From a virus: 47,125 bases of DNA. A program made the position numbers and the translations under genes. A model generated the notes under the pieces. It saw only the letters and a list, made by a program, of their open reading frames with translations, did not search any database and was not told the DNA's origin. How positions within the stretch are numbered: the first letter of the stretch is position 1; each line of letters starts with the position of its first letter. Shown here one piece after another: positions 14,314 to 46,014 of this stretch. The stretch spans positions 1 to 47,125 of the IMG/VR virus record IMGVR_UViG_3300047121_000094; one strand, given 5' to 3'.

Positions 14314-18558
<4,245 letters not shown>

Positions 18559-42911: not shown

Positions 42912-43736
42912 ATGGACAACAACCCACTAAGACAGTATTTCCGTAGACCAGCAGTACATTTTAAACTACCTAGCGGGGGCAAAGGATACTCACCCGGGGT
43001 ATTAGATATGCCACCTAACGGTGAGATTCCAGTTTATCCTATGACTGCTATCGATGAGATCACTGTAAGAACTCCTGACGCATTGTTCAACGGCGCGGCT
43101 GTTGTAGACTTGATCAAGAGTTGCGTACCAAGTATTAAAGATCCATGGCAAATTAATTCAAACGATTTAGATGCTGTATTGATTGCTATCAGAGCCGCAG
43201 GTGGACAACAGCAATTAGAGATCAGCACACAGTGCCCTAAATGTCAGAATGAATCTACTTATGGCTTGAACCTTGTAGCCGTACTATCACAATTAAAGCA
43301 CGGCGACTATGATACTGAATTAAAAGTAAATGATCTGAAAATAAAATTTAGACCTCTTTCTTATAAAGAAATGAATGAGGCCGGGTTAGAGCAATTTAAG
43401 ATACAAAAGGCTTATGGCGACTTAGATAAGATAGAGAATGATGATGACCGTAACAAAAAGACACAGGAAGCAGTACGTGTAATTACGGAAACTACAATGA
43501 AAATCATTTCAACAACTGTTGAATATATCGATACGCCCACTACTAGAGTTGAAGAAAAACAATTTATTGATGATTTCTTGCATAATTGCGATGGAAGTGT
43601 TTATATTGCTATACGTGATTATAATTCCCAACTCAAGGCCAGCACAGAATTAAAACCCTTAGACATCAAGTGTGACAACTGCACACACGAATACGTTCAG
43701 CCTTTCACGTTGAACGCCAGCGATTTTTTCGGCTGA
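42912..43736 (+). CDS. T4-type baseplate hub assembly protein (gp26/gp51 family)
   Basis: 274 residues. PLRQYFRRPAVHFKLPSGGK, then NGEIPVYPMTAIDEITVRTPDALFNG and IKSCVPSI are typical of the T4-type hub assembly proteins of marine phages; I cannot separate gp26 from gp51 by eye. Two CxxC pairs (CPKCQNE near 112 and CDNCTHEY near 256) suggest a zinc ribbon. It helps build the baseplate hub around the tape measure, which is the divergent neighbour. The last codons GAT TTT TTC GGC TGA contain a T_TTT_TTC slippery site two codons before the stop, leading into the next ORF. Confidence 0.82.
   Translation: MDNNPLRQYFRRPAVHFKLPSGGKGYSPGVLDMPPNGEIPVYPMTAIDEITVRTPDALFNGAAVVDLIKSCVPSIKDPWQINSNDLDAVLIAIRAAGGQQQLEISTQCPKCQNESTYGLNLVAVLSQLKHGDYDTELKVNDLKIKFRPLSYKEMNEAGLEQFKIQKAYGDLDKIENDDDRNKKTQEAVRVITETTMKIISTTVEYIDTPTTRVEEKQFIDDFLHNCDGSVYIAIRDYNSQLKASTELKPLDIKCDNCTHEYVQPFTLNASDFFG
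43724..43730 (+). promoter_or_regulatory. candidate -1 ribosomal frameshift site T_TTT_TTC
   Basis: The heptamer T_TTT_TTC is read in frame as x-TTT-TTC by the hub gene and obeys the X_XXY_YYZ rule. Slipping back one base passes the TGA at 43734 and enters the open frame that ends at 43960. Possible downstream pairings (GGCT 43731-43734 with AGCC 43751-43754, or CTTC 43739-43742 with GAAG 43757-43760) are short. The fused product would be 349 residues. Confidence 0.6.
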
Positions 43737-43960
43737 AACTTCTTACTGCTAGCCCTGAAGCCGTACAGAAGTATATTGAAAGTTTAGAAAAAGAAACAGA
43801 GGGCATACGTAAGGCAGCACTCACCTTGGCTTGGTATATGAGAGGTGGTGCTACTTATGAGGATGTCCTTAACATGTCTACTTTTGAACGTGAATCCATA
43901 AGCAAACTAGTTGAAGAACATATGGAAATCACAAAGAAGACACAACTTCCATTTTTCTAA
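43730..43960 (+). CDS. start-less hub-assembly ORF, -1 frame extension
   Basis: Open in the -1 frame from 43676 to the TAA at 43958-43960. The translation after the slip reads RLKLLTASPEAVQKYIESLE, then LAWYMRGGATYEDVLNMSTFERESI and a KKTQLPFF end. This WYMRGG small protein follows the hub gene in T4-like phages. No ATG, GTG or TTG precedes the conserved part; the only ATG before the core is the Met inside WYMRGG, and CTG at 43733 is the one near-cognate codon. Frameshifting from the hub gene is therefore the simplest way to make it. Confidence 0.7.
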   Translation, partial: RLKLLTASPEAVQKYIESLEKETEGIRKAALTLAWYMRGGATYEDVLNMSTFERESISKLVEEHMEITKKTQLPFF

Positions 43961-43987
43961 TATACAAATCTTTTAATCTTTATCTGG

Positions 43988-44420
43988 GAAGACAAACTTC
44001 GTTTGTCTAAGTCTTCGCTTTCGCTCAGACTTATTATTTTTCTTAATCTTTTTATTAAGGGAATCATATTGCCGCCTTAGAGTCCATGGTAGTGCTATTC
44101 AGCACCACCATTGGAAAAAGCACATTGCCATGCCCTATCACCCATGTCGTCTGTTCCCCGACATACTAGCCCTATCGCTGTATATCGCCACCGGTTGCCC
44201 TATAAAGTTTATGGGACTGTAGTGAGATACTGTTACATATCTCGGCAACGCATGTTCTATAATCGCAAGACAAAGTAGATTATAGACTCATTGAGGGTTC
44301 GCAAACCTGTCGATTGCCCTCTCGGTATTCCGTAGATGTTACTCTACGCTTACTCCAGAATCTGACGGCACAGCACTATCTGTACAATCTCAAGGAGGGT
44401 CGAGCACCTCGACCAAACAA
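43988..44420 (-). ncRNA. candidate large structured non-coding RNA
   Basis: A gene-free stretch of ~430 bases that folds into at least ten hairpins. Examples (plus coordinates): 44256-44286, 9-bp perfect stem; 44084-44114, 13-bp stem with one bulge; 44398-44414, 7 bp; 44144-44164, 6 bp; 44331-44348, 6 bp; 44194-44199 with 44244-44249, a long-range 6-bp helix enclosing two hairpins. Minus strand is favoured: there the 44084 stem has G-U instead of A-C, 44120-44133 makes a GCAA tetraloop with G-U pairs, and 44009-44032 gives GC-GAAA-GC with tandem GA. I see no tRNA, tmRNA, RNase P or group I core. Confidence 0.55.
43990..44050 (+). terminator. double-hairpin terminator after hub operon
   Basis: Two adjacent hairpins on the plus strand, AGACAAAC-TTC-GTTTGTCT (43990-44008) and AAGTCT...AGACTT (44009-44032), are followed by TTATTATTTTTCTT. 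They start 30 bases after the last hub ORF stop and would end that transcript. The same hairpins could equally be the 3' end of the minus-strand RNA candidate. Confidence 0.5.
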
Positions 44421-44426
44421 ATTGTT

Positions 44427-44984
44427 TTAAACGCTAATTGATGTATCTATGATTAGATTTGAGTTGGTCTCTGCTTTACCGGAACAATATGATTTAAGTA
44501 GGTCTTTGTTTAATCTGAAAAAATGTTCGAACTCTATGATGAGCCAATCTTTGTGTTTTGATGATGTGTAATATAAAAAGTTGTCTGTGACCCAGGTCAC
44601 AGTAGTTTGCACTGCTACGAACTTACCTTTTCTGTTGAACTTCATGAATAACACATTGATGTCATCAGATTCGGCAACGTCCATCATTTGATCTATCCAA
44701 CCATCTAATACTTTGCAAGAACCTGCAAGCACTAGATGAAAAGGAAAATCAGCATAACTTTTACATTCTGCGTTGAGTTTAGAGAAACTTTCTCCCGGGA
44801 CTATATCTCCCTTGAAACTACGTATCTGCCCTTCATGTAAGAATTGTGTTCTTACTTGATTTTTCCCACCTACGTAGGCTCCCGATCCCGGGGCGCGAAT
44901 AAAACTCTCATTGTATAATTGTGAAAGGTAATTTGCAACTTCGCGTTCATAACTATTACCTTTGGCTTTCTGTGGACTAGGCAT
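44427..44984 (-). CDS. PD-(D/E)XK nuclease, Hjc-like resolvase
   Basis: 185 residues from the ATG at 44982-44984 (an upstream start would overlap the radical SAM gene). It opens KAKGNSYEREVANYLSQLYN and RAPGSGAYVGGKN, then FKGDIVPG and LNAECKSY, which matches the E...GSG...GD...ExK layout of archaeal-type Holliday junction resolvases and related PD-(D/E)XK nucleases. Beside a gp46-like gene, a junction-resolving or DNA-end-processing role (a stand-in for T4 gp49) is likely. The Shine-Dalgarno is poor, so the start is not certain. Confidence 0.72.
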   Translation of the reverse strand: MPSPQKAKGNSYEREVANYLSQLYNESFIRAPGSGAYVGGKNQVRTQFLHEGQIRSFKGDIVPGESFSKLNAECKSYADFPFHLVLAGSCKVLDGWIDQMMDVAESDDINVLFMKFNRKGKFVAVQTTVTWVTDNFLYYTSSKHKDWLIIEFEHFFRLNKDLLKSYCSGKAETNSNLIIDTSISV

Positions 44985-45000
44985 GTTTATATGTATTCTC

Positions 45001-46014
45001 TCACCACTCAGTGGCATAATTTTTATCGACATATTTGGATGCACACTTAGTAGAACACTCATAACTGCCGTTCATAAAATCTTTATTCCAAAAACTGTCA
45101 CTGACCACAATCGATAATAGGTTCTCATGCAAGTTATATTTCTTTCCTAACTTGCCCCAATGATCGTTGTGACCATATCTGTTGGCTACCCAACAGCAAG
45201 GATAAAACTCTCCCCTGCTATTGATGAATAATCCCTTATTTCCTATATGACATATAGGCGTGATACTATCTATCGTTTTAACCTGTGCTAACAATTCGTT
45301 GTTTTTGTTTTTCCATTGTTCAGGAACAGGTCTACTATTAAAATACCATAATCTACGTTCAAATCTATGGCTAGTGCTGATCAAGTCTTTTCTAGTAGGC
45401 TCTAGTATATCATCTTTACCATAATGCTCATACTTGCTACCGAACTTTGTGCTTTTAGTCAACTGAAAACTATCAAAACCTAACTTCTTAGCCAGGCTTT
45501 TCATATATTCTATTCGTTGTTCATTGAACCTAAATCCAATACAGTCCCATAACATATAGACTTCGCTGTTAGCGCGAATCGTGTTCACACCGATCATGAT
45601 GCTATCCCAATCACTATTCACACGATATTGTTCGTTACTATCTTGATCCCAACCATCTAGGCTGAAATGTATCTGATCAACATTGTTCAATGTCTGTGCT
45701 AACTCTAGCCACCACTCTTGTTTCTTATAACTACCATTGGTCACTATAATGATGCTGACATTCTTGACGGACTTGATATACTTGATAACATCTATCAATT
45801 CATGCGCATAGATAGGATCACCGTCATCACCGCAGAAAGTTATTTTTTCTACGTTTTTAGAAATAAACTCTGGAGTGAAATTTCTTTTAAAGAATTCTAA
45901 ATCTAGTTCGGTGTTAATCAAACTATCAGGCACTTCGGTACGTGCGCAACGAGGACAGCGTAATGTACACTTACTGCTGATTTCAATGTGCCAGTGCCAA
46001 AGTGCTAGACTCAT
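45001..46014 (-). CDS. radical SAM protein with SPASM-like domain
   Basis: 337 residues. The [4Fe-4S]-SAM motif CTLRCPRC (Cx3Cx2C) is at residues 16-23, followed by FCGDDGDP (SAM-binding GGE-like) and HFSLDGWD. The C-terminal part has PICHIG, YPCCWVANRYG and SYECSTKCASKY, a cysteine pattern of SPASM/twitch type that binds an extra cluster. SPASM enzymes modify peptides or RNA-linked substrates. It overlaps the end of the gp46-like gene (ATGA) and precedes the nuclease gene by 16 bases. No short precursor peptide gene is seen nearby; the substrate is unknown. Confidence 0.85.
   Translation of the reverse strand: MSLALWHWHIEISSKCTLRCPRCARTEVPDSLINTELDLEFFKRNFTPEFISKNVEKITFCGDDGDPIYAHELIDVIKYIKSVKNVSIIIVTNGSYKKQEWWLELAQTLNNVDQIHFSLDGWDQDSNEQYRVNSDWDSIMIGVNTIRANSEVYMLWDCIGFRFNEQRIEYMKSLAKKLGFDSFQLTKSTKFGSKYEHYGKDDILEPTRKDLISTSHRFERRLWYFNSRPVPEQWKNKNNELLAQVKTIDSITPICHIGNKGLFINSRGEFYPCCWVANRYGHNDHWGKLGKKYNLHENLLSIVVSDSFWNKDFMNGSYECSTKCASKYVDKNYATEW

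Follow-up and report, generated by a model that had tools for sequence, protein, structure and literature searches.

The window analyzed here is the whole of a 47,125-base IMG/VR virus record, which carries T4-like genes for the portal, the major capsid protein, and the baseplate hub and in which the RNA candidate region spans positions 43961-44426. The sequence-only reading had described this region as a gene-free stretch between convergent genes, and the ends of the flanking ORFs confirm this description: a small plus-strand ORF stops at 43960, and the minus-strand ORF of a PDDEXK nuclease ends at 44427. The longest ORF fully within the region has 55 codons, and the longest ORFs do not exceed the length found in shuffled sequences, on which ground a coding region is rejected. 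ARAGORN found no tRNA genes in the 47-kb window. Elsewhere in the window, positions 14314-18540 (minus strand) encode a protein of 1408 aa that contains collagen repeats and ends in a Peptidase_S74 chaperone; it is probably a tail fiber. Below, we use T1 for RNAs of the window type and T2a and T2b for relatives with a different core, of which T2b has an RF01718-type 5′ part. The neighboring genes and the predicted parts of the RNA are as follows.

42912-43736, plus strand: T4-like baseplate hub gene on the convergent side (Pfam PF12322, phrog_150)
44427-45062, minus strand: PDDEXK nuclease gene, immediately upstream of the RNA (Pfam PF24608)
43985-44425, minus strand: whole structured RNA gene, class T1, predicted from IMG/VR homology, the consensus structure, and an R2 model match at 44188-44332 on the minus strand
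Near 44425 and near 43985, minus strand: predicted 5′ and 3′ ends of the RNA, respectively, both approximate
44398-44414, minus strand: 5′ hairpin GGUCGAGGUGCUCGACC, common to T1 and some T2a RNAs (alignments, consensus fold)
44394-44397, minus strand: CUCC strand of the helix closing the 5′ domain, pairing with GGAG at 44353-44356 (RNAalifold pair table)
44353-44356, minus strand: GGAG strand, the partner of 44394-44397 (RNAalifold pair table)
44331-44348, minus strand: hairpin CGUAGA...UCUACG (two-sided change in four of six pairs, five sequences)
44323-44326, minus strand: ACCG strand, pairing with CGGU at 44190-44193 (T1-core helix 1, in which four of five pairs never vary)
44293-44321, minus strand: hairpin with the stem GAGGG (44317-44321)/CCCUC (44293-44297) (T1-core helix 2)
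44252-44291, minus strand: hairpin 44281-44291/44252-44261 (T1-core helix 4)
44245-44249, minus strand: GUUGC strand of the family signature helix, pairing with GCAAC at 44194-44198 (invariant in T1)
44190-44198, minus strand: GCAACCGGU, of which GCAAC (44194-44198) pairs with 44245-44249 and CGGU (44190-44193) with 44323-44326
44124-44129, minus strand: copy 1 of the direct repeat (GGCAAU), preceding the 3′ hairpin
44088-44109, minus strand: 3′ hairpin GGUGGUGCUGAAUAGCACUACC (consensus fold, pair table)
44068-44073, minus strand: direct-repeat copy 2, GGCAAU, after the 3′ hairpin
43990-44033, strand not assigned: two 3′-terminal hairpins (sequence, MFE folds)

The earlier claim that this region encodes a structured RNA is strengthened by its folding energy. 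The minus strand has an MFE of −146.4 kcal/mol compared with a shuffled mean of −117.3 (z = −5.3; none of 100 shuffles was as good), while the plus strand gives a z of −4.4. Read on the plus strand, the two 3′-terminal hairpins are followed by a T-rich run, and they may also end the late-gene transcript; they are absent from the output of the terminator scan. A promoter scan gave no promoter able to start the window copy of the RNA. The related motifs GCGATAGGGC and GTGATAGGGC, to which attention had been drawn as a pair, are both in the window but are not conserved among the relatives compared.

Using the hub protein, we retrieved 29 distinct IMG/VR loci. Homologs of the window stretch have DNA identities of 75-100% over 278-466 bases: 99-100% in six loci, 77-78% in L009 and L012, and 75% over 278 bases in L007, L008, and L011. 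In L029 and L030, the match is limited to 63 bases of the 5′ part of the stretch, and further loci have, in the same convergent gap, an RNA of ∼420-460 nt with a different core. Pattern scans of IMG/VR yielded at least 120 T2 stretches and 54 and 73 stretches for two T1 patterns; the full-length distinct sequences comprise 98 T2 and 34 T1 RNAs, and a wider T1 set holds 53 distinct and 43 dereplicated sequences. Some T2 RNAs (L036, L044, L029, L034, and L017) bear the T1 5′ hairpin, and the RNA therefore seems to be mosaic; this mosaicism perhaps arose by recombination in the 5′ domain. By blastn, the DNA of the window, T2a, or T2b had no match in phage records, and T2a DNA had none in plasmid records. 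In cellular genome contigs, 17 pattern matches were found; because they align with the T2 profiles over only ∼20-40 bases around the pattern (best E 4e-5, among the best eight rows per profile), we take these matches as chance and do not count cellular genomes as carriers.

RNAalifold consensus structures have energies of −166.2 (T2b, n = 41), −153.4 (T2a, n = 56), and −159.9 kcal/mol (T1, n = 24), and the corresponding energies on the opposite strand are weaker (−148.8, −124.6, and −143.2 kcal/mol). We assessed T2b, T2a, and T1 with an R-scape-like covariation test, in which a G-test with APC was compared with 60 null alignments generated by redistributing the substitutions of each branch on the tree. 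Significantly covarying pairs fall within the predicted structure in 15 of 21 cases for T2b, 10 of 14 for T2a, and 4 of 5 for T1; thus, covariation in homologs, the absence of which would have refuted the sequence-only reading, is found in the T1 alignments. The T1 core consists of five helices that RNAalifold predicted without guidance. Of the 621 cells of this core, 99.2% are paired, and two-sided change is seen in 13 of 27 pairs (none of 500 shuffles was as high), whereas the count of pair types alone is not above that of the shuffles (228/500). Helix 2 (44293-44321) has two-sided change in four of five pairs and 99.1% of cells paired, and helix 4 (44252-44291) has two-sided change in eight of nine pairs and all cells (100%) paired.

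Strand assignment is also supported by the distribution of G-U pairs. It had been noted that G-U pairs replace would-be mismatches only on the minus strand of the window, and this preference recurs at the level of the family: G-U cells outnumber A-C cells by 446:76 (T2b), 724:71 (T2a), and 230:37 (T1) on the assigned strand, compared with 296:138, 272:152, and 114:95 on the opposite strand, counts that are biased by the structure having been predicted on the same strand as that counted. Altogether, sequence comparison leads us to conclude that 43961-44426 encodes a conserved, folded non-coding RNA of ∼430 nt on the minus strand.

By capsid protein, jumbo T4-like phages make up most of the isolates nearest to the window, among the 15 listed of 2486 records that matched. 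Unannotated gaps adjoin the hub gene in E. coli phage 121Q (836 nt) and in BF (803 nt), and XaC1 has an unannotated gap of 792 nt two small ORFs further on from this gene. The 121Q stretch matches 40 phage records, 121Q included, at 161 BLAST places, many of which are unannotated while several lie under hypothetical proteins; the hypothetical proteins annotated over the RNA in L298, L301, SD-15_S21, 7t3, and PHA46 are probably spurious. We refer to these RNAs as class T3. Based on whole-record searches, there are four copies per genome in 121Q and Hallingskeid and five each in BF, XaC1, GAP32, CBB, XbC2, Kaldavass, and Munch, counts that omit a few extra matches of ∼30-50 bases. For RaK2, the whole-record search gave no copy, the 121Q query matched two places, and one copy was aligned. 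The T3 alignment contains 40 copies from ten genomes, with near-identical copies from related genomes kept.

Upstream of the T3 RNAs, an exact TATAAT is present in 26 of 31 anchored copies (mean 2.8 and maximum 8 in 500 base shuffles), as searched in the 75 bases upstream of a conserved CCUGAU by which 31 of the 40 copies could be anchored. By eye, several T3 copies also have TGAAAC-like −35 boxes. For phage CBB, the genome paper describes a promoter class with the −35 element TGAAACG and names DNA-synthesis genes there (PMC5259590); the terms intergenic, non-coding, ncRNA, and Rfam do not occur in this paper. The strand of T3 is assigned because of the TATAAT boxes; by energy, T3 is the exception among the classes, the opposite-strand consensus being slightly stronger (−129.8 versus −124.5 kcal/mol). 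The earlier suggestion that the RNA is transcribed behind a nuclease/radical SAM operon, by read-through, stays a suggestion; most of the anchored T3 relatives have a TATAAT box before them, while the scan gave no promoter able to start the window copy. In several T3 copies (L280, L319, L324, L331, and L333), a short hairpin with a T-run lies between the TATAAT box and the RNA, an arrangement like that of an attenuator or of the terminator of the preceding gene.

The long-range helix 44194-44199/44244-44249, proposed from the letters of the window, exists in the predicted structures and is the most conserved element of the whole family. In T1, it consists of GUUGC paired with GCAAC plus one C-G pair; the corresponding strands in T2 are GUUGN and N′CAAC. 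The GCAA at 44195-44198, which had been taken for a GNRA tetraloop, is better read as part of one strand of this helix. In 131 of 132 sequences of T1 and T2, the 150 nt upstream contain a CGUUGN that is complementary to N′. Across 136 rows (96 of 98 T2 and 40 of 40 T3) and five pairs, 679 of 680 cells are standard pairs. N and N′ are paired in 135 of 136 rows, compared with a shuffled mean of 60.6 and maximum of 75, and occur as U-A, A-U, G-C, and C-G. Compensatory changes in T3 extend to other pairs of the helix, with GUUAC/GUAAC in the copies that GAP32 and CBB carry at the hub gene and GUCAU/AUGAC in one copy of 121Q. In T1, the helix is invariant (23 of 23 rows), and its support in this class therefore comes from homology and RNAalifold. 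We conclude that this predicted signature helix is kept in all four classes and links T1, T2a, T2b, and T3.

The genes around the RNA vary between classes and between copies. Upstream of T1, the PDDEXK nuclease gene is found in all 33 cases with an ORF (of 34). Upstream of T2, 73 of the 94 cases with an ORF (of 98) have a gene of one cluster, the tested member of which encodes a SegE-type GIY-YIG nuclease (Pfam PF19835); three T2 RNAs are preceded by the PDDEXK gene and the remainder by other genes. The PHROG closest to this SegE-type gene, phrog_447, is labeled NAD synthetase and looks mislabeled. Of the 116 RNAs for which a convergent ORF was found, 58 (30 T1 and 28 T2) have the baseplate hub as that gene, and one copy is adjacent to the hub gene in 121Q, BF, Munch, Hallingskeid, GAP32, and CBB. 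The five BF copies adjoin five different gene sets. Because the upstream genes differ and the BF copies adjoin five gene sets, we conclude that the RNA is not tied to one gene. In 17 IMG/VR records, which were picked for holding a match, may be fragments, and were searched with T1 and T2 core models, there was one T1 match in 11 and one T2 match in 6; no record had matches to both classes or more than one match.

The 3′ hairpin is flanked by direct repeats. In T2, a word of 7 nt stands on each side of it, the two copies being separated by 47-64 nt. The word follows the fixed pattern xGATyAz, with x, y, and z open, in 90 of 98 rows, and the two copies agree at all three open positions in 90 of 90, even as x, y, and z changed 19, 12, and 11 times, respectively, by parsimony on a tree built without the word. 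The bases adjoining the word show no agreement between the copies except for one invariant A. Judged by eye, seven of the other eight rows have copies identical in 7 of 7 positions, and one has copies agreeing in 6 of 7; the words, each present twice, are TGGTAAT, ATGAAGA, ACGAAAT, ACATGAA (two rows), AGACGAA, and GGATAAT. In T3, CGUCAG or CGUCAA stands on either side of the hairpin in nearly all copies, and CUUCAA stands there twice in RaK2; the repeats are identical in 39 of 40 copies, compared with a shuffled mean of 19.3 and maximum of 30. The repeat shuffles include no correction for relatedness, which is corrected for in the T2 parsimony count only. Comparison of the sequences thus supports that the two repeats are held identical in at least two of the four classes.

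In T1, the window's own class, repeat identity is only a trend in the sequences compared. The window has GGCAAU twice, and GGCAAT is the word common to 16 of 42 rows; some T1 rows are changed in both copies (AGCAAT, GGCATG, and GGTAAT), and other rows mismatch. The mean shared word is 5.60 versus 5.10, with 5.5 as the highest of 300 permutations, and the aligned words are identical in 19 of 40 rows (shuffled mean 9.6, maximum 15), while the count of identical cells, 150 of 240, is within the shuffle maximum of 151.

No partner of the two copies was found in cis. In a comparison of entropy across the columns of T2a and T2b, each position of the word is fully predicted by the other copy only, the next best column accounting for at most 0.58 of the entropy; position z in T2a (44 U, 4 A) was set aside as uninformative. 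Within 2.5 kb, no third copy or complement of the repeat is found at a recurring place. In 875 kb of flanks, matches to an RNA's own word number 9 versus 6.4 in sense and 8 versus 5.0 in complement, a small apparent excess. With no co-varying site in the RNA and no recurring site within 2.5 kb, we reject a cis partner of the repeats.

The window RNA represents the T1 class of a family of large, structured T4-like jumbo-phage RNAs, and on balance we think it somewhat more probable than not that it is a trans-acting scaffold with two docking sites for one partner. According to this model, the core would form a rigid fold around the long-range GUUGN/N′CAAC helix, and the RNA would act in trans as a stable scaffold. 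The two identical repeats would be docking sites for a single partner encoded elsewhere, either a phage protein or an RNA, and because the specificity of this partner would drift, both sites would have to change together. By analogy with the TATAAT boxes of T3, the window copy would be expressed during infection as an RNA of its own. Two docking sites for one trans partner are proposed because no cis partner was found, and trans action because isolates carry several copies of the RNA, most of them behind TATAAT boxes, and because its neighbors change. More tentatively, and with rather less confidence than doubt, we speculate that the jumbo-phage RNA presents the same variable address of 6-7 nt twice, flanking a hairpin, to a trans partner that has been re-specified many times. 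Repeats that are identical within a genome and drift between genomes along with a trans factor are familiar from lambdoid nut sites and plasmid iterons; the likeness lies in identical yet drifting repeats, whereas here both repeats are in one structured RNA and flank a hairpin.

The known RNAs that come closest are Polynucleobacter-1, GOLLD, and ROOL. An Rfam cmscan of six loci with E up to 5 gave one match above the gathering score: in the T2b RNA of L014, the 5′-terminal 137 nt align to RF01718 (Polynucleobacter-1; 111.8 bits, E 2e-23). This family is over the cut-off in 4 of 12 records and has no match in the window RNA, either at the gathering score or with E up to 5. Polynucleobacter-1 is described as a motif of Burkholderiales and of fresh water or estuary (PMC2864571). 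The 5′ part of T2b is alike, but the model covers only 141 nt compared with the RNA of ∼430 nt, and it excludes the phage context, the rest of the RNA, and classes T1, T2a, and T3. Other Rfam families gave no match. In particular, neither GOLLD nor ROOL matched the window at the gathering score, the six loci with E up to 5, or five isolate loci with E up to 1. Thus, the sequence-only reading is supported in proposing a phage RNA that is large, ornate, and structured, with ∼430 nt on the minus strand, whereas identity with GOLLD or ROOL is not supported.

GOLLD and ROOL also suggest an alternative to a scaffold with a trans partner. GOLLD and ROOL are often found near tRNA islands, and the window RNA differs in this respect, with no tRNA gene in 47 kb, although the trait is one that holds often rather than always. 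GOLLD is a large, ornate orphan RNA of phages and prophages, ROOL is a phage RNA that is likewise large and ornate, contains pseudoknots, and has no known function, and the structures of both are RNA-only assemblies without protein (PMC12286853). The window RNA is like GOLLD in size, ornate style, and phage origin but is shorter, and it is like ROOL in being an ornate phage RNA but has no Rfam match to it. By extension, the RNA could form a cage or ring of copies in which the repeats are contacts between protomers, and its size, ornate fold, phage origin, and high conservation fit this idea, as does the protein-free assembly of GOLLD and ROOL. However, such contacts would be expected to have a co-varying docking site within the same RNA, and none was found for the T2 repeats; together with the lack of an Rfam relationship and of a tRNA gene in the window, this makes an RNA-only assembly unlikely.

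We regard it as distinctly improbable that the RNA is a cis element, i.e., a bidirectional terminator or 3′ UTR by which the nuclease mRNA and the convergent late transcript are ended or stabilized. The RNA starts just past the upstream stop codon in a convergent gene pair, two plain hairpins are present at its 3′ end, and its position at the 3′ end of an operon would fit as well. However, the conserved structure goes far beyond the needs of a terminator, the upstream genes differ between classes, most anchored T3 copies have a TATAAT box in front of them, and in BF the four copies that are not at the hub gene sit between genes of the same direction.

The spacing of the T3 copies raises the idea of a replication-origin pre-primer, a structured transcript that stays on the DNA as an R-loop and primes replication, for which ColE1 RNA II and the T4 origin transcripts are models. 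In eight isolates (121Q, BF, GAP32, CBB, XbC2, Kaldavass, Munch, and XaC1), the four to five copies per genome all lie on one strand, ∼34-112 kb apart, and their spacing is more even than chance (smallest-gap P of 0.002-0.07 per genome, in eight genomes that are related and not independent). However, the common orientation means little because most coding in BF and 121Q is on the same strand, so that one orientation is expected; GC skew in both phages is unchanged at the copies and tracks the coding strand; and the 17 IMG/VR records have one copy each, leaving this explanation very improbable. Least probable of all is that the repeats are a DNA feature, with a hairpin cassette removable by a site-specific recombinase between crossover-type overlaps: recombinase overlaps do combine free sequence with exact identity, as the repeats do, and nuclease genes adjoin the RNA in most cases, but the repeats are just 47-64 bp apart, the three bases preceding them always differ (CTC versus TCT), and an AAUCU before copy 2 is common to many T2 and T3 RNAs, favoring one RNA architecture.

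If the speculation about a variable address presented twice is correct, RNA scaffolds would have a new means of recognizing a partner, and this partner could be read from co-variation across phage genomes. The locked repeat pair is a strong and simple clue to function. A single hairpin-rich gap becomes a phage RNA family with more than 100 members, and we conclude that the family is large, mostly unrecognized, and carried by big T4-like phages. The Rfam orphan Polynucleobacter-1 gains the two thirds that it lacked and a place in phages, and several unannotated copies of the RNA are found in jumbo phages that grow on laboratory E. coli; the record of one Asteriusvirus, Sharanji, gives K-12 MG1655 as host. 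Among the titles and abstract openings listed from open-access literature, none reports the complete RNA, any of the classes T1, T2a, and T3, or the locked repeats. Among the large phages with unannotated gaps near the hub gene, PA5oct and Sinorhizobium phage Phosso are not claimed as family members, with no match by four profiles and no signature helix by pattern. The gaps themselves are large (L263:6233-7246 in Phosso and L264:6526-7188 in PA5oct) and possibly represent further RNA classes.
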